Shown piece after piece: positions 51,167-58,510 of a stretch of 64,000 nt of DNA. The notes beneath the pieces were generated by a model, which did no database searches, was not told the DNA's origin, and saw only the letters and a list, made by a program, of their open reading frames with translations. Position numbers and translations under genes: made by a program. The first letter of the stretch is position 1, and each line of letters opens with the position of its first letter. Origin of the DNA: Glaciihabitans sp. dw_435 (GTDB lineage: Bacteria > Actinomycetota > Actinomycetes > Actinomycetales > Microbacteriaceae); NCBI RefSeq assembly GCF_018449675.1, contig NZ_JAAVUZ010000003.1:186001-250000 (forward strand), in the 5' to 3' direction.

Positions 51167-52819
51167 ATGGATCCAGACACGGGGGGATCAGTGGCTCCGG
51201 TCACGCGGCAACGCGATCGGCTAGTTCGTTCGATCGCGCAAAATCAGTTACTCACTTCGGCGGCATTGCTGCTGTTGGCGGCGTTTTCACTTGTCGTCAC
51301 GCCGGAGTCCCTGTCGCGCCCCGCATTCTTCGGCGGTATTGCCCTCGCCTTCGTTGTCACCGGTCTTGCCGTGCTCGTGCCATGGACGGAAGCGAATAAG
51401 CGCTGGGCGATTATTCTGCCCATCCTCGACATTTTCGCCATCATTGGCGTGCGCGAGGGCGAGACCCAGCTGGGTGCTGGTCTCTTCCTGGTGTTTCCGA
51501 TCATTTGGATGTCCCGCAACTTCCGTCTCAGCGGCGCCGTTGGCGGAGTTCTCCTCGCGACCGCGCTGCTCTGGACAACCTGGGCCTTCAGCGACTCAAC
51601 GCTCGCCATCACGGATTTCTCCAGCCTCGTTCTCCTGCCGCTCACCCTGAGCTTCATCGCGACAACCATCTACGCAACGTCCCGGCGCACCACGGGACAA
51701 CGCGTTCTTCTCCGCCAACAGGCGTCGCTGACCGAAGCCGCCTTCGCCCGCGCGCGACGCCAGGAACGTTCGCTCGACGAAATCCTCAATGCCGTGGAGT
51801 TCGGAGTCATCGCCTTCAACCGACAGGGCTCTGTCACCCTCATCAACGATGCCCACCGGGCTTCCCTGGTCGAATTTGGAGCACCCCGCGCGGCGATCGT
51901 CCACCCCACCGCGTACCAGTCCGACCGGATCACCCCGTTTCCCGAGTCCAGTCGGCCGTTCTCCCGGGCGCTGAACGGTCAGTCGTTCGAGAATCTCACC
52001 ATCTGGGTGGGGGAGCCCGGAACCCGCCAGGTGGCGTTCTCCGTGACATCCCGAAGCCTGACAACCCAGTCGGGGGAGCCAGACGGCGGCGTCATCGTGC
52101 TGCGGGATGTCACCGCGGAGCTCGAGGCAATTCAGGCCCGCGATGATCTGGTGGCATCGGTGTCGCACGAGTTGCGTACCCCACTGACATCCATCCTTGG
52201 CTATCTGGAACTGGCACTCGACGATGACGAGCTGCAGCCGGACACGCACCGCATGGTGGACATCGCGCACCGCAACTCCGAGCGTCTGCTGTCGCTGGTC
52301 ACGGACCTGCTGACGGCAGCCAGCGACGCGGACAAGCGGATGCCTCTGAAATTTGAAACCTGTGACATTGCCACCATCGTCCGGCAGGCAGTGGACGACC
52401 AGCGTCCGGTCGCGGCAAACCGCGGCATCACGCTGACCGCCGTTGCGGAGGAGACAACGATCACCAGTGCGGATCCGCTGCGGATTCGGCAGGTCGTCGA
52501 CAATCTGCTGAGCAACGCGATCAAGTACAACCGCGACGGGGGACGTGTCGTGGTGTCGGCGTCCTCCGGCGTCGATGATGTGATCGTCAACGTCGCCGAC
52601 ACGGGCGTGGGCCTGACGCCCGAAGAACAGTCGCATCTGTTCGACCGGTTCTATCGCACGGAGTCGGCACGCGCTTCATCGACGCAGGGCACCGGCCTCG
52701 GAATGGGCATCACCCGGGACATCGTTCGCCAGCACGGCGGGGAGCTCACCGTTCAGAGCGAGCGTGGCGTGGGGAGCACCTTCGTTATGACGTTGCCCGG
52801 CCTGCCCGAATCTCCCTAA
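51167..52819 (+). CDS. Membrane sensor histidine kinase with PAS-like domain
   Basis: 550 residues. Five to six membrane helices between about residues 29 and 170 form an integral-membrane input domain rather than a periplasmic sensor. A coiled segment (~178-205), then a PAS-like domain (~205-318), DHp with His334 in SVSHELRTPLTS, and a HATPase domain with NLLSNAIKY, VADTGVGL and GTGLGMGIT boxes. Likely first gene of a two-gene unit with the GGDEF-like gene 24 bases downstream. The probable partner response regulator, if it is the OmpR-type one at 56430-57458, lies 3.6 kb away on the other strand. Confidence 0.9.
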   Translation: MDPDTGGSVAPVTRQRDRLVRSIAQNQLLTSAALLLLAAFSLVVTPESLSRPAFFGGIALAFVVTGLAVLVPWTEANKRWAIILPILDIFAIIGVREGETQLGAGLFLVFPIIWMSRNFRLSGAVGGVLLATALLWTTWAFSDSTLAITDFSSLVLLPLTLSFIATTIYATSRRTTGQRVLLRQQASLTEAAFARARRQERSLDEILNAVEFGVIAFNRQGSVTLINDAHRASLVEFGAPRAAIVHPTAYQSDRITPFPESSRPFSRALNGQSFENLTIWVGEPGTRQVAFSVTSRSLTTQSGEPDGGVIVLRDVTAELEAIQARDDLVASVSHELRTPLTSILGYLELALDDDELQPDTHRMVDIAHRNSERLLSLVTDLLTAASDADKRMPLKFETCDIATIVRQAVDDQRPVAANRGITLTAVAEETTITSADPLRIRQVVDNLLSNAIKYNRDGGRVVVSASSGVDDVIVNVADTGVGLTPEEQSHLFDRFYRTESARASSTQGTGLGMGITRDIVRQHGGELTVQSERGVGSTFVMTLPGLPESP

Positions 52820-52843
52820 TACGACGCGCACTCGAGGTACGCC

Positions 52844-54007
52844 ATGATCATTGACTCCCAGACCCTCCTTCTGGCCAGCGGCGCCGTCGTCACCATCGCG
52901 GGGTTCTCCTTCATCCTGAACACGATCCTCCGCCGCAACGACGACGTGGGACGGTCGTGGAGCATCGCGTTCGTGTGCGGAATCCTGGCGACGTTCTCGT
53001 ACGCAGTGTGGGGCTTCGTTCCCGGGGCATGGTGGGCAATCGCCTTCGGCAATGCGGCTCTCGTGCTCTCGCTGGGCGCCATGTGGGCGGGGTGCAGGCA
53101 ATACAACCTCCGACGATCGCTCATTCAGGTTCCGATGGTGGCCGCCGTCATCGTGGGGTTGGCCGTCATCGTCCGTGGGCCCGACGGGGGCGACTGGGCG
53201 GGCGGCGTGGAGATGTTCCTGGGGATAGCCGCTTTCTCCGTCCTGGCGGGCGCTGAGACCCTGCGGGCACGGATGCAGCGCAGCGTGAACGCACGGATTC
53301 TCACCGTGGTCTTCTTGGGCGTCGGTGGGTACTATGTCGCCCGCATTGTCGTGTTCCTCGTCGACGGGGAGGACGGCACGCTGTTCACCACGTGGTTTGG
53401 AACCAACACGACAACGTTCGTGACCATCATGCTGGTGATTCTGGCGTCGATCTCGATGTCGATACTCACCTCGGGGCGTACGGTCCGCGCCGGCCAGACG
53501 TCACTCGGCACGGGCCTGTCGAACATTCCGGGCATCGTCAATCACGCGCTATTCGATCAGCTCGCGAAGGACTGGCTGTCCCGGGCCAAGCGGGACCGTG
53601 ACGCTCTCGCACTCATACTTCTCGACGTCGACAACCTCACCGATATGAATACCGCGTTCGGCCGCGACTTCGGCGACCGCGCGATTTATAGGGTGGGCCG
53701 CATCGCCTGCGAGCAGTCACCATCCGCGGCCCTCATCGGGCATGACGGCGCGCGTCAGTTCGCCGTGCTGACCACGGTGCCGTCCGTGGGATCGCCCATC
53801 ACGGTGGCGGAACACATTCACACGGCCCTGGTGGAAACGCCGATCGACCCGGTCGAGGGAGTTCGGGCGATTTCGACCTGCGGGCTCGCCACCACCGACG
53901 ACTACGGCTACGACTTCGGCGCATTGATCAGGGCGGCCAATGCCGCGATTATCACGGCTCGCGCGCACGGATCAGGATCGATTGCCGTCGCTCTCCCGGA
54001 ACGCTAG
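52844..54007 (+). CDS. Membrane protein with degenerate GGDEF domain
   Basis: 387 residues. Seven or so membrane helices cover residues ~8-208. Then a GGDEF-like fold from ~232: the metal-binding DVDNLTDMN-type segment (LLDVDNLTDMNTAFG at 259-273) is recognisable, but the GGDEF site reads GARQF (302-306). The substrate-binding and catalytic residues are therefore lost and diguanylate cyclase activity is improbable. It may bind a nucleotide or act as a protein partner. Co-transcribed with the histidine kinase; followed by a convergent hairpin. Confidence 0.87.
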   Translation: MIIDSQTLLLASGAVVTIAGFSFILNTILRRNDDVGRSWSIAFVCGILATFSYAVWGFVPGAWWAIAFGNAALVLSLGAMWAGCRQYNLRRSLIQVPMVAAVIVGLAVIVRGPDGGDWAGGVEMFLGIAAFSVLAGAETLRARMQRSVNARILTVVFLGVGGYYVARIVVFLVDGEDGTLFTTWFGTNTTTFVTIMLVILASISMSILTSGRTVRAGQTSLGTGLSNIPGIVNHALFDQLAKDWLSRAKRDRDALALILLDVDNLTDMNTAFGRDFGDRAIYRVGRIACEQSPSAALIGHDGARQFAVLTTVPSVGSPITVAEHIHTALVETPIDPVEGVRAISTCGLATTDDYGYDFGALIRAANAAIITARAHGSGSIAVALPER

Positions 54008-54025
54008 GCGCGTCGGCTGACGCGC
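54008..54025. terminator. Bidirectional hairpin between GGDEF-like gene and lipoprotein
   Basis: 7-bp perfect stem GCGCGTC/GACGCGC with loop GGCT, starting at the base after the upstream stop and ending 7 bases before the convergent stop. Confidence 0.7.
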
Positions 54026-54032
54026 TTGCCGG

Positions 54033-54692
54033 CTACGGCGTTGTTGATGCCAGCGCGATGGTGAGGGAATCGGTTCCCGTCTGCTTCGCGTACTCCTTGG
54101 AGGTCGGCGTCGTCTGCAGGAGGATCTCGTACGCGAACGACAGCGTGACCGACGTGGCGGTGGAGTCAAGCGCCGGCAGCACAAAGGTCTGGCTGTAGGT
54201 GTACGGCGCCTTGATGAGGTAGCCGGGGGTGACCGTCGCCGAATCGCTGGACGCCGCCGGAGCAGGAAGCGCGCCGAGTGGACCGGTGACTGCGGTGGAG
54301 AGCGTCACCTTCGAGAGGTAGAACTTCTGCTTGGATGACCCGCCCGCGAGCTTGCCCGACAGCGAGAAGCTGATCGGCTTGTTCGCCGCGGCCGTCCACT
54401 TATCCATGGTCAGCGTTGACCAGTAGTTGATCGTCATGGTGATGTTGCCGGCCTTGACCGTCCGCATCGTCGATCCGCTCGCGAGCTCGTTCTTGATCGA
54501 GACGATCGGAGCCGGCTGAGTGGGGGTCGTCGTCGGAACGGAAGTCGCCGTCGACGACGATGTCGGCGCCGATGTGTTGTCGCCCTCGGCCGCAAGCCAG
54601 GGAGCGGTTCCGCACCCTGAGAGAGTGCCGATAGTGAAAGTTGCCAGCAATGCCGCGCCTGCGACCGCTCGTGACCGCTTCGAAATGGCCAT
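54033..54692 (-). CDS. Putative lipoprotein
   Basis: 219 residues. Signal peptide with lipobox LSGC; Cys27 would be lipidated. A Ser/Thr/Pro-rich spacer (38-60) is followed by a beta-rich domain rich in Thr and Ser with no cysteine. I do not recognise the family. Its divergent position next to the GT2 gene and inside the cluster suggests a role at the cell surface together with the polysaccharide, but this is inference. Confidence 0.75.
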   Translation of the reverse strand: MAISKRSRAVAGAALLATFTIGTLSGCGTAPWLAAEGDNTSAPTSSSTATSVPTTTPTQPAPIVSIKNELASGSTMRTVKAGNITMTINYWSTLTMDKWTAAANKPISFSLSGKLAGGSSKQKFYLSKVTLSTAVTGPLGALPAPAASSDSATVTPGYLIKAPYTYSQTFVLPALDSTATSVTLSFAYEILLQTTPTSKEYAKQTGTDSLTIALASTTP

Positions 54693-54884
54693 GAGTCCCC
54701 CTAATTTGTTCTGTTCGCGACTGCCCCGAGAAAACCGCGCGTAAGTCTTGAGCTAATCCTGAGCCAATCTTGCACCCAAGCGAGTACAAAACTGCGCTGC
54801 GTGTTGCAGACTGACACTAACAAGCTCGCAGGGCTTCCACGAACCGCGAAAGCGTAATCTCAGAAACAAATCAGGGGGAATCAC

Positions 54885-56330
54885 ATGACCAATACGGACG
54901 ACAGGTACGTCAACTCGGCTCCGGTTGGAAGTGAGCTCGACCAGCTCACCAGCGACTTCATCGCATCCGTCGAGTCGCTCCCGGAATACCGCCCGACCAT
55001 TGGTTGCGTCATCCCGGCCTACAACGAAGCGGAATCCATCGCGCAGGTGCTCGAATCCCTGCTGGCGCAGACCCGCCTCCCCGACATCATCCACGTTGTC
55101 GTGAACAACACGACCGATGACACCGTCAAGATCGCCAGCGAATTTGCCGGCCCCCACATCCGCGAGATCAATGGCGAGGAACAGTTCACCGAGATCTACG
55201 TTCACGACATCGGCAAGAACCGCGACAAGAAGGTCGGTGCACTCAACTACGGCTACACGCTCGTCGAGGGCTGCGACTACCTTCTGGGCGTCGACGGGGA
55301 CACGACGGCGGATGCCACGGCAGTCGAGTACCTCGAGGCCGAGATCAACTCGGACACCCGCATCGGCGGCATCTCCGCCATCTTCAGCATCGATGACACC
55401 GTCATCAGCGGCCTCATTCCGCAGTTCCTGATCACCGGCCAGCGCACCCAGTTCGCCGCATTCAACATGCAGAACATGCTTCGCGGGCGCAACATGGCGG
55501 TCCTCGGGGGCCAGTTCTCCATCTTCGCTGTCAAGGCACTGCGCAAGGCCATGGAAGACAACCACCAGTCCACTCCGTGGGTGAAGGACAGCGAGGTCGA
55601 AGACTCCCTGCTCTCCCTGCAGATCAAGAGCGCGGGCTTCCTGACCAAGATCAGCGCACAGGCCCGCGCCGACGTGGGAGGTATGACCACCCTGCGCGGT
55701 CTCGACGCCCAGCAGGTGAAGTGGAACTTCGGCGCCATCGAACTGATGTGGCCGGGCCAGCGTGGTGACACGAAGGGCCAGCCCTTCCACCCCAACCTTC
55801 GTCTGCGGTGGCTGGAAAACTTCTCCATGCTCGTCAACGGCTTCACCCGCCTGATGTTCCTCGTGCTGCTCGTGTCCTCGCTGTCCATTGGCGCGTTCGT
55901 CTTCAGTCCGATCTGGCTGATTCCGCCGCTGGCCGCCATCGGGCTGAACCTGCGCATCGCGATGTCGATGAAGAAGCGCAACAGCAAGGACATCCTCTTC
56001 GCGCTCCTGCTGTTCCCCGCCGAGATCTACATGATCGTTCGCCTCGGTCACTTCTTCCGTGCGTGGACGAAGTTCCTCAGCCGCAAGCAGGTCGACAACT
56101 GGGCTGCTCAGGCAAAGGCCGAGCGTGGCTCGGGTAACGGCTACCTCGCTCCGATGCTCATCGCAGTTCTGGTGCTGGCGCTCATCGTCTTCGCCTGGTT
56201 CCAGCTTGACGTCATCACGCAGTCGACCATCCTGTGGATCGGATGGCCCATCCTCGGCGTCATCACAGGTATCCAGACGCTCACCATGATGAGCAAGCTC
56301 TTCCAGCGTCACCGCGGCTACAAGGTCTAG
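54885..56330 (+). CDS. Processive family 2 glycosyltransferase (polysaccharide synthase)
   Basis: 481 residues. A cytosolic GT-A domain has the VIPAYNEAESIAQVLESLL start, nucleotide-sugar Asp137/Asp139 in VDGDT, the catalytic-type EVED (Glu239-Asp240) and a QQVKW motif (276-280), the variant of QxxRW found in chain-forming cellulose/chitin/hyaluronan-type synthases. Five membrane helices follow (about 322-343, 344-360, 369-388, 423-440, 447-467), which could form a translocation path. No PilZ domain, so no direct c-di-GMP control is visible. GGGGGAATC precedes the ATG. Product not predictable; the neighbouring GH6 enzyme argues for beta-1,4-glucan. Confidence 0.88.
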   Translation: MTNTDDRYVNSAPVGSELDQLTSDFIASVESLPEYRPTIGCVIPAYNEAESIAQVLESLLAQTRLPDIIHVVVNNTTDDTVKIASEFAGPHIREINGEEQFTEIYVHDIGKNRDKKVGALNYGYTLVEGCDYLLGVDGDTTADATAVEYLEAEINSDTRIGGISAIFSIDDTVISGLIPQFLITGQRTQFAAFNMQNMLRGRNMAVLGGQFSIFAVKALRKAMEDNHQSTPWVKDSEVEDSLLSLQIKSAGFLTKISAQARADVGGMTTLRGLDAQQVKWNFGAIELMWPGQRGDTKGQPFHPNLRLRWLENFSMLVNGFTRLMFLVLLVSSLSIGAFVFSPIWLIPPLAAIGLNLRIAMSMKKRNSKDILFALLLFPAEIYMIVRLGHFFRAWTKFLSRKQVDNWAAQAKAERGSGNGYLAPMLIAVLVLALIVFAWFQLDVITQSTILWIGWPILGVITGIQTLTMMSKLFQRHRGYKV

Positions 56331-56359
56331 CGCCAGGACGGCCCTGCGGCCACAACGAA

Positions 56360-56400
56360 GGGCCCGGCCCTCATCGAGATCATCGATGGGAGCCGGGCCC
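56360..56400. terminator. Bidirectional terminator between GT2 and response regulator
   Basis: 9-bp GGGCCCGGC/GCCGGGCCC outer stem and 6-bp CATCGA/TCGATG inner stem. Serves the plus-strand GT2 gene and the convergent response regulator. Confidence 0.85.
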
Positions 56401-56429
56401 TGTGTTGTTCGCGGGGAAACCGCGAGAGG

Positions 56430-57458
56430 TTAAGAACCCTCCGTTGCTGTGAGGCGGTAGCCGACGCCCCGGACGGTTTCGATCCATCGGGGCGAGGCAG
56501 TGTTGTCGGAGAGCTTCTTGCGCAGGTTAGCCATGTGTACCTCGATCGCGCGCTTGTCGGACTCGCTGATGAAGTGGCTGGTCACGTAGCTCTCGCCACG
56601 CAGCAACAGCACAAGGTCAGCCTTGGTACGAACGCGGCGGGTCGACTCCATCAGGGCGGCAAGCAGGTCGAACTCGCTGCGCGTCAGGTCGATCTCGGTG
56701 GTGTCGATCTGCACAACACGGGTTTCAATGTTCAACCAGAGGCTGTTGTGTTCCAGCCATCCTCCGCCGGACGCCTGGGGCGCGGGGGCGGCGACCGGAA
56801 CCAGCGCTGCTGGCTCGGTCACCAGCTCCGCCACGACCGGCGCGGCGTACACCGGGGCGGGAGGCGCGGCGTACACCGGGGCGGGCTCGGCAACGGGAGC
56901 GACCGGAGCAGCAGGCGCGACGGGTGCGGCGACGGGAGCCACGTATGCCACGGGCTCGGGCTGAGCCACCGGCAGGGGAGCGGCGGCAACGGCGACCGCA
57001 GGCGCCGCAACCGGTGCAGCAGCCGCCGGGGCGGGTTCGCCCACGGGAGAGAGCGTCGACCCATCCGCAGCGATGACCGCGCGTGGTCGACGGAGCATTG
57101 CTTCGATGCGGGCGCGAAGTTCGCGCGGTCGGAACGGCTTGTTGATGTAGTCATCAGCACCGGCGTCGAGTCCCTGGAGGGTGTCGATTTCTTCGCTGAG
57201 AGCCGTGAGCATCACGATGTACGTCGTGCTGAATGCCCGGAGACGCCGGGCGGTCTCAAACCCGTCCATACCCGGCATGTTCACGTCGAGGGTGGTGACG
57301 ATGGGATCGTGCGTGCGTACGGCTTCGATTCCGTCGGGGCCGTTGGCGGTTGCGACAACGTCGAATCCGGCCTGCGTCAGCACCGCTTCGAGCAGATTAC
57401 GAATGTCGTCGTCGTCCTCAATAATGACTGCGACGCGCTTATCGATCGAGCTTTCCAT
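56430..57458 (-). CDS. OmpR-type response regulator with long Ala/Pro linker
   Basis: 342 residues from ATG 57458, chosen because the receiver normally begins about eight residues before VIIEDDDD and TACCAT lies seven bases upstream; the open frame continues to 57512, overlapping the GH6 stop, so an 18-residue extension is possible. Receiver with phosphoacceptor Asp58 in LDVNMPGMD, Thr85 region TAL and Lys107 in NKPF. From ~137 to ~229 is a linker of almost pure Ala, Pro, Val and Gly with repeated PVYAAP units. Winged-helix DNA-binding domain 235-335 (TRSEFDLLAALM, RVRTKADLVLLLRG, VHMANLRKKLSD, TVRGVGYRL). Likely partner of the kinase 3.6 kb away. Confidence 0.9.
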   Translation of the reverse strand: MESSIDKRVAVIIEDDDDIRNLLEAVLTQAGFDVVATANGPDGIEAVRTHDPIVTTLDVNMPGMDGFETARRLRAFSTTYIVMLTALSEEIDTLQGLDAGADDYINKPFRPRELRARIEAMLRRPRAVIAADGSTLSPVGEPAPAAAAPVAAPAVAVAAAPLPVAQPEPVAYVAPVAAPVAPAAPVAPVAEPAPVYAAPPAPVYAAPVVAELVTEPAALVPVAAPAPQASGGGWLEHNSLWLNIETRVVQIDTTEIDLTRSEFDLLAALMESTRRVRTKADLVLLLRGESYVTSHFISESDKRAIEVHMANLRKKLSDNTASPRWIETVRGVGYRLTATEGS

Positions 57459-57465
57459 GGGGTCG

Positions 57466-57471
57466 ATGGTA
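57466..57471 (-). promoter_or_regulatory. -10 box of response regulator gene, leaderless
   Basis: TACCAT on the minus strand, seven bases before ATG 57458, inside the 53-base gap after the GH6 gene. Confidence 0.45.
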
Positions 57472-57511
57472 CCAACAACCTTTCCTTGGGCGGCGTGCGC
57501 CGGATCCGTCA

Positions 57512-58510
57512 TTATTTGGAAGCGTTCGCTAGTGCGAGTGCGCCGTCATTCCACCAGGCACCGGCCGCGGGAGCACCGTTGCAGGCACCGTCGCTTTCGC
57601 CGGGATTCTTGATCCAGAGGTTGGCATCCTGTGCACCATCGCTGACGATGCCGGGAGCCTCACCGAGCGCACGACCCGCCGGGTTGCACCACTCGCCATT
57701 CGACCCGTTGCCATTGCGGCCCGTATCGATCACGTAGTGTGCGCCCCCGGTGAGCTTGCTGACGGCCTCGCCGTAGGCGTGCTCGTCGGCCGTGGTGTTG
57801 AAGTTGGAGACGTTGGTGGCAAATCCCCGCACCTTGGAGATGCCTGCCTTGTTGAGCAGATCGGCCATGGCGGCGGGGGTGATCCAGTTGGAGTGCCCGC
57901 CATCGAGGTAGATCGTCGTCTCCGGAGCGGACAGCAGCACGCTGGGGGCGGACAGCTTGTCGACGTCATCCTTGATTTGCGCGGTGCGCTTGTCGACGTC
58001 TCCGCAGCTCTGCGTCAGGGTGAGCGCATCGGGCTCCACGATCACGACGCTCTCGTGGTTCGCGAGTCCCGCGGCGATGGCGGAAATCCACGCGGGATAG
58101 TCGGCTTCGCTCAGCCCACCAGCGGACAGGTTGTTGCAGTCGCGGTTTGGAATCCCATAGATGACGAAGGTGGCGATCTTGTTGTCCGCGGCCGCGGCAC
58201 TGGCGACACCGTCGACAAACCCGGCGATCTCATTGGTGGGGTACTTCTCGGGCACGAGCCAGATCGCGGTGGGGGTATCCGCAATCTTCTGAATCGCGGT
58301 GGTGTCCGTACCGGCCGCCTGCTGCGTGCGCACGGCAACGGCAGCGGATGACTCGGGGTAGACGTACAACGACTTACCCACCAACGGATTCGCCTGACCG
58401 ATCAAGGGAATCACCACACCAAACGCTAGCCAGGCCAACAGCCCGAGTACGAGTACGGAACCTAAAACAATCGCCAAAATGGGTTTCGGCCGGGATTTCG
58501 CCTGTGCCAT
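57512..58510 (-). CDS. Membrane-anchored GH6 family glycoside hydrolase
   Basis: 332 residues from ATG 58510 (GGAGA four bases upstream); the open frame continues upstream but no protein features precede it. One N-terminal helix (11-33) anchors it, catalytic domain outside. GH6 motifs: YGIPNRDC with Asp124, VIVEPDAL with catalytic-acid Asp161, YLDGGHSNW, FATNVSNF, IDTGRNGNG, WCNP-GRALG and NPGESDG with Asp307. The three Asp match catalytic positions of GH6 cellulases. The family cleaves beta-1,4-glucan; CslZ of Streptomyces is a GH6 enzyme next to a cellulose-synthase-like GT2. Probably trims or releases the polymer made by the GT2. Confidence 0.9.
   Translation of the reverse strand: MAQAKSRPKPILAIVLGSVLVLGLLAWLAFGVVIPLIGQANPLVGKSLYVYPESSAAVAVRTQQAAGTDTTAIQKIADTPTAIWLVPEKYPTNEIAGFVDGVASAAAADNKIATFVIYGIPNRDCNNLSAGGLSEADYPAWISAIAAGLANHESVVIVEPDALTLTQSCGDVDKRTAQIKDDVDKLSAPSVLLSAPETTIYLDGGHSNWITPAAMADLLNKAGISKVRGFATNVSNFNTTADEHAYGEAVSKLTGGAHYVIDTGRNGNGSNGEWCNPAGRALGEAPGIVSDGAQDANLWIKNPGESDGACNGAPAAGAWWNDGALALANASK

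Follow-up and report, generated by a model that had tools for sequence, protein, structure and literature searches.

A putative two-component-controlled, synthase-dependent surface polysaccharide module in Glaciihabitans sp. dw_435

Do a membrane kinase, a GGDEF-like protein, a lipoprotein, a glycosyltransferase of family 2 (GT2), a response regulator and a glycoside hydrolase of family 6 (GH6) that lie side by side in an actinobacterial genome form one polysaccharide system and, if so, what would that system make? The genes in question occupy positions 51167-58510 of a 64,000-nucleotide stretch of Glaciihabitans sp. dw_435 (contig NZ_JAAVUZ010000003.1, positions 186,001 to 250,000; hereafter the window), and all six open reading frames (ORFs) are intact. 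They probably constitute a two-component-controlled, synthase-dependent surface polysaccharide module, with a beta-glucan as the most economical polymer because a GH6 is encoded in the locus. We infer both that a polymer is produced at the cell surface and what it is.

An initial annotation of this DNA had described six genes of these families within 7.3 kilobases (kb), and the assignments agree with Pfam and NCBIfam. It had also called the GGDEF domain dead-looking (the signature is replaced, and the window reads DGARQF), noted a QQVKW motif in the GT2 (present), placed the GH6 at the membrane (a single hydrophobic N-terminal segment spans residues 19-37) and reported the absence of a GlxA-type copper oxidase (PF09118 has no match in the whole genome); each of these statements holds. 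The features of the locus, in window coordinates, are:

51167..52819, + strand: membrane sensor histidine kinase with 5 hydrophobic segments, HisKA and HATPase_c domains and the phospho-accepting His334
52844..54007, + strand: membrane protein with 7 hydrophobic segments and a degenerate GGDEF domain (neither GG[DE]EF nor an RxxD I-site)
54033..54692, - strand: orphan lipoprotein of 219 amino acids with lipobox Cys27, a predicted secreted beta-sandwich and near-constant partner of the GT2
54747..54774, + strand: putative operator CTTGAG-N5-CCTGAG-N5-CTTGCA, a direct repeat with an 11-base pair (bp) period in the divergent GT2/lipoprotein promoter region
54885..56330, + strand: processive-type GT2 with DGD, VED and QQVKW motifs, a cytosolic N-terminal domain and C-terminal membrane segments
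56430..57512, - strand: OmpR/PhoB-type response regulator (Response_reg and Trans_reg_C) with a 113-residue linker rich in Ala, Pro and Val
57512..58510, - strand: GH6 (beta-1,4-glucan hydrolase family) with one N-terminal hydrophobic anchor segment and four conserved active-site Asp residues

The stop codon of the GH6 gene and the start codon of the regulator gene overlap (TAATG at 57512).

Recurrence of the block across genomes

A genome scan identified 142 loci whose GT2 is related to that of the window, and the best 80 (65-84% identity) were retrieved with up to 10 kb per side. This sample comprises the most similar GT2 relatives, and distant, looser arrangements are under-sampled; all loci were selected for the similarity of their GT2, genomes that are related do not count as independent, and the counts ignore kinship. 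Partner genes were placed by tblastn and by iterated profiles built from the 80 loci themselves, and the division into Microbacteriaceae and other families was assigned by hand from record titles. Excluding 17 of the 80 loci for short flanks left a full-context set of 63, each flanked by 6.5 kb or more on either side. The lipoprotein and the regulator, each present in 61 of these 63 loci, are the most constant partners of the GT2, followed by the GH6 (57/63), the kinase (39/63) and the GGDEF-like protein (36/63). The last of these never occurs without the kinase: both are present in 36 loci, neither in 24, and the kinase alone in 3. All six genes are found in identical order and orientation in 35 of the 63 loci. 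In Nocardioides-type loci, the lipoprotein gene lies directly downstream of the GT2 gene and the kinase/GGDEF-like pair is missing.

The genes flanking the block differ by lineage. In the window, L026, L028, L073 and others, the block adjoins what we read as suf and ABC-F genes; in two Leifsonia/Okibacterium loci, Cryobacterium and Herbiconiux, the neighbours are presumably aspartokinase and asd genes; and other flanking genes again are found in Agreia, Plantibacter, Microbacterium and Nocardioides. All six genes were also detected by profile in two separately retrieved genomes, G333 (locus L121, from another family) and G460 (L120), the latter with the lipoprotein placed beyond the kinase/GGDEF-like pair. 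The proposal that the six genes form one locus was examined for independent scatter among relatives and stands, as the genes recur together in several genomic contexts. The membership first proposed is narrower at its centre: GT2, lipoprotein, regulator and GH6 make up the core, to which some lineages, chiefly within Microbacteriaceae, add the kinase and GGDEF-like protein.

Searches of whole genomes, which score only part of the first-look candidates (e.g. 27/63) and for which absences are not absolute, give a similar picture of the GT2 and the lipoprotein. Of 120 genomes of the family, 21 have a GT2 match and 19 a lipoprotein match; these 19 all belong to the 21, and the two genes adjoin in 18 of them; the lipoprotein was not found in G071 (38% partial GT2 match) or G097 (52% match). 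Among 396 genomes of the phylum, 3 contain the GT2, and the lipoprotein was found in those 3, plus one marginal partial match. That marginal match, in G315 (1.5e-6), has no other block protein within 19 kb and was treated as chance. The lipoprotein family extends beyond this locus, as several genomes, including that of the window, carry a second, diverged copy elsewhere. The copy in the window's own genome (G000:C49:167225-167878; L119:9226-9879, - strand) adjoins ORFs that we take, from reading their sequences, to be galT/galK, and no GT2 was found among the ORFs of the 10 kb around it. A second match was also observed in G052, G026, G093 and G011, and a marginal partial one in G037.

Several loci depart from the common arrangement in their own ways. 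The Curtobacterium loci L071, L074 and L075 keep the GT2, kinase and regulator and lack the GH6 (L075 also lacks the lipoprotein); in L071, which has short flanks, and L074, the GGDEF profile has no match, yet a shrunken GGDEF-like remnant can be seen by eye behind the kinase. In Pseudolysinimonas kribbensis, the block occurs twice on a single contig in nearly identical form (L065 and L067), the GT2 match being shorter in one of the copies; each copy is close to a contig end, and the doubling could be an assembly duplication. In 17 loci (L029, L036, L040, L041, L047 and others), the block adjoins a gene for a protein of approximately 820 amino acids in which, by our own reading of the sequence, the GGDEF motif is intact and an EAL-like region is present. 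This gene is downstream of the block in Herbiconiux and upstream in Cryobacterium, and it may be a mere neighbour of the asd gene.

Synthase, lipoprotein and hydrolase

The GT2 (Pfam family match 2.5e-14) has the sequence features expected of a processive synthase: DxD, ED and Q(Q/x)x(R/K)W motifs, the last with K in place of R in 81/81 sequences, and a C-terminal membrane domain. DGD, EVED and QQVKW are present in all 81 GT2 sequences, and motif searches found QxxRW and the FxVTxK loop of cellulose synthases in none of them. No N-terminal hydrophobic segment was detected in a hydrophobicity scan. The predicted fold is nearest to those of hyaluronan synthases (best E 6.6e-11, TM-score about 0.47), followed by chitin and cellulose synthases; the hyaluronan-synthase-type matches cover the membrane part and rank first, and TarS and SpsA are also among the matches. 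A sequence search against solved structures returned weak matches throughout. A plasmid collection held one distant GT2, from Lacticaseibacillus paracasei (25.4% identity), and the partner genes were not found among its annotated neighbours. An apparent GT2-lipoprotein fusion in Nocardioides (a long open frame in L083) was dropped, as the GT2 match is in a different reading frame.

The 219-residue lipoprotein has no Pfam or NCBIfam family. Its lipobox Cys is invariant in a 54-row alignment, and its model contains a confident all-beta domain (ten-residue mean predicted local distance difference test score [pLDDT] of 91-98 from residues 71 to 210). Foldseek matches are weak. The likeness is to arrestin C-domains and ApaG, and it carries no functional meaning: VIA-align gives Z 10.6 for visual arrestin (root-mean-square deviation 3.2) and Z 10.2 for an ApaG domain (3.3), each with 125 aligned residues at 8% identity, and many sandwiches score alike.

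GH6 is a family of beta-1,4-glucanases, and the enzyme of the locus (Pfam family match 5.7e-56) retains the four active-site Asp residues, as do 61-62 of 62 GH6 sequences (the roles and T. fusca numbering of these residues are assumed). In a crude scan of the 62 N-termini, 48 have a hydrophobic, uncleaved-type anchor without a lipobox, 13 have a lipobox and 1 has neither. The closest solved structures by sequence are M. tuberculosis CelA1 (Cel6) and T. fusca endoglucanase E2 (1uoz, 1up0, 1tml). The active-site Asp residues are the same; unlike these enzymes, the GH6 described here is membrane-anchored and genetically tied to a synthase. Pfam found no binding module in it. Two more GH6 genes stand in tandem elsewhere in the genome (G000:C1:583817-585696).

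These proteins could also be read, tentatively, as a processive synthase whose polymer is not a glucan (GlcNAc [N-acetylglucosamine]-, hyaluronan- or mixed-type) and a GH6 that does not cut this product and instead makes way for it by remodelling the wall or another beta-1,4-glycan. Such a reading keeps the module and varies its product, and its probability overlaps with that of the beta-glucan reading. The comparable GH6 of Streptomyces, CslZ, hydrolyses peptidoglycan and alpha-chitin besides cellulose (PMC9040799, PMC11022532). The best NCBIfam model for the GT2 is PgaC, far under its cut-off, the nearest folds are those of hyaluronan and chitin synthases, and the three Curtobacterium loci keep the GT2, kinase and regulator without a GH6. 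Against a non-glucan product stand the linkage of GH6 and GT2 in 57/63 full-context loci and the known activity of the GH6 family on beta-1,4-glucans.

It is unlikely that the GT2 attaches individual sugars to a carrier (lipid or wall), yielding a surface glycolipid or wall decoration, with the lipoprotein an unrelated surface protein nearby. The GT-A fold is also that of non-processive GT2 enzymes, TarS and SpsA appear among the fold matches, and the missing N-terminal hydrophobic segment points the same way; however, QQVKW is a form of the processivity-associated motif and is present in 81/81 sequences, matches of the hyaluronan synthase type that span the membrane part outrank the others, and the lipoprotein was found only in GT2-positive genomes (19/19 among the 120 of the family).

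Signalling proteins, a candidate operator and the proposed mechanism

The kinase and regulator have the domains and residues of an OmpR/PhoB two-component system: HisKA and HATPase in the former, a receiver and a winged helix in the latter, and conserved His, Asp and Lys. The H and N boxes of the kinase are present in 49/50 aligned sequences (one gap each), and the G1 Asp and G2 Gly in 50/50; a PAS-like stretch falls below the Pfam cut-off. The phospho-relay Asp and Lys of the regulator are present in 65/71 sequences, the other 6 being gaps, and its conserved Thr is replaced by Ser in 7. The regulator linker is unusually long (113 residues in the window, 72% A/P/V; median 95.5 in 64 sequences).

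The GGDEF-like protein (Pfam GGDEF 9.9e-13) has neither the GG(D/E)EF signature of an active diguanylate cyclase (0/44 sequences) nor the RxxD I-site of a PssE-type receptor (0/44), and the first metal Asp is present in only 26/44. A hint of cyclic diguanylate (c-di-GMP) involvement is weakened, as the active-site and I-site motifs are missing from all 44 sequences.

The repeat CTTGAG-N5-CTTGAG was first spotted by eye in the window and the locus set, and the counts from that set are therefore not blind. The operator set consists of 74 loci (L064, L066, L082, L085, L091 and L097, all under 8 kb, were excluded). In 57/74, the best match of the whole locus (ties allowed) lies at most 350 bp upstream of the GT2 gene. 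On the GT2 strand, this placement is seen in 56/74 loci with the 5-bp spacer, compared with 1 to 18 for other spacers, and 60 permuted hexamers gave a mean of 6.3 loci and a maximum of 33 (TGAGCT, which overlaps the motif; next 19). Outside Microbacteriaceae, the repeat has this placement in 14/25 loci, compared with a permuted mean of 1.7. A score of at least 10 of 12 occurs upstream of the GT2 in 54/74 loci but in only 8/1357 random windows; upstream of the lipoprotein it occurs in 38/72, in largely the same DNA. L121 and L120, the sole operator-tested loci outside the original set, score 12/12 and 10/12 upstream of the GT2. Binding to direct repeats of roughly 11 bp is typical of OmpR/PhoB-type regulators, which makes the local regulator the natural candidate binder; by this analogy, we infer that it may bind the putative repeat.

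From these parts, a mechanism can be proposed. The membrane kinase would phosphorylate the regulator together with the GGDEF-like membrane protein, whose role as sensor or scaffold would not depend on a nucleotide; the regulator would bind the CTTGAG repeats and turn on the GT2 gene and, where divergent, the lipoprotein gene. The GT2 would polymerise a uridine diphosphate (UDP)-sugar, most likely into a beta-glucan, and pass the polymer through the membrane; outside the cell, the lipoprotein would hold or guide the growing chain, the part ascribed to BcsB or GlxA, and the surface-anchored GH6 would trim or release it, as proposed for BcsZ or CslZ.

A number of observations weigh against this account. 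A GlcNAc-type or mixed polymer would be compatible with the GT2 fold; the named relatives of the GT2 are weak (the PgaC model scores 50 bits against a cut-off of 422), and its AlphaFold model is middling (pLDDT 72.7, and below 50 at residues 203-208, 235-251 and 292-298). Neither the GH6-regulator pair nor the kinase gene is preceded by a clear copy of the repeat (scores of at least 10 in 0/60 loci for GH6 and 0/44 for the kinase), and control by the regulator through that site would therefore not extend to the whole block. The operator score is below 10 in 20/74 loci, including the regulator carriers L076, L079, L084, L086 and L105. Across the genome, CTTGAG repeats show no enrichment (one mismatch or none at 6 sites, versus 11 for a reversed control), a low count that is compatible with a private rather than global target. 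Membership also varies: G097, with its 52% GT2, shows no lipoprotein in the family-genome search; at the G029 locus, all but the lipoprotein are present (with kinase and GH6 truncated at the ends of the stretch), and the sole lipoprotein match of that genome is a diverged copy on another contig; L098 (Microlunatus) retains the GT2 alone; L075 lacks the lipoprotein; L080 lacks both regulator and GH6; and L063, L074, L075 and L094 lack GH6.

That common descent alone explains the proximity of the genes, with GH6 and regulator forming a cellulose-scavenging unit independent of the GT2, is very improbable: neighbourhoods are shared among related genomes, the GH6 and regulator genes overlap, the genome has two further GH6 genes and no operator was found upstream of GH6, but the block order is kept while the flanks differ, also in the other-family genome G333 (L121), and the GH6 is surface-anchored with no binding module found by Pfam.

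Comparison with known systems

The initial annotation had drawn a parallel with the csl locus of Streptomyces. That locus has the lytic monooxygenase LpmP nearby. The GT2-GH6 pairing and the likeness of the GH6 to CslZ stand, and the GT2 is not of the CslA type, so that csl serves only as an analogy. The GH6 is 39-42% identical over approximately 300 residues to the GH6 beside cslA-glxA in five loci, all from one genus that we take to be Streptomyces, and it is surface-anchored, as CslZ is. Orthology of the GT2 with CslA was rejected: against five CslA-like proteins encoded beside a PF09118 gene, the best blastp E value is 0.068 and the hhalign probability is 0.6% (with shallow profiles). PF09118, the domain of GlxA-type oxidases, matched in 5 of the 9 genomes searched, all of one genus, and not in the window's own. 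As in cslA-glxA-cslZ (PMC11022532, PMC9040799), a GT2-type synthase, an extracellular partner and a surface-anchored GH6 are clustered, CslZ being a membrane-associated lipoprotein (PMC9040799); unlike csl, the locus incorporates a lipoprotein and a two-component system.

The logic of synthase, extracellular partner and hydrolase is shared with bcsA-bcsB-bcsZ and Clostridium ccsZABHI (PMC7710045), from which the locus differs in that its hydrolase is a GH6. The partner proteins of bcsABZ, cslA-glxA-cslZ and the clostridial ccs are themselves mutually unrelated (PMC11022532, PMC7710045). Neither PilZ nor BcsB was found in the six locus proteins (Pfam, E <= 0.1), and a regular expression for the PilZ motif pair matched 0/81 GT2 sequences. 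Degenerate GGDEF receptors include PelD, which is similar to PssE of Listeria. The Listeria pssA-E locus likewise combines polysaccharide genes with a degenerate GGDEF membrane protein, and PssE binds c-di-GMP via an RxxD I-site that is retained there (PMC4125290) and found in 0/44 of the proteins described here. With hyaluronan synthase and PgaC, the GT2 shares its fold and motif order; it differs in having no N-terminal hydrophobic segments, QQVKW in place of QxxRW and weak sequence similarity. Among open-licence papers, judged by their titles and abstract openings, we found none on a GT2-lipoprotein-GH6 locus.

For Gram-positive bacteria, synthase-dependent polysaccharides have been mapped poorly, and the loci described are mosaics in which no shared sequence links the parts other than the synthase. 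To these, the present locus adds a recurrent gene combination from many environmental actinobacteria, an orphan lipoprotein named as the likely export partner, a concrete candidate operator, and a case of a GGDEF fold kept across many genera without either known motif. Somewhat speculatively, it may represent a separate actinobacterial secretion complex with its own synthase family (invariant QQVKW, no N-terminal membrane segments), an arrestin/ApaG-like lipoprotein in place of BcsB or GlxA, a surface GH6 in place of BcsZ, its own two-component switch acting via an operator of 11-bp period, and a pseudo-GGDEF protein that, with neither catalysis nor c-di-GMP binding, would be a nucleotide-free sensor partner of the kinase. 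The module works like bcsABZ or cslA-glxA-cslZ and is a member of neither, because both synthase and partner differ: the GT2 has no significant similarity to CslA, and no PF09118 domain was found in the genome.

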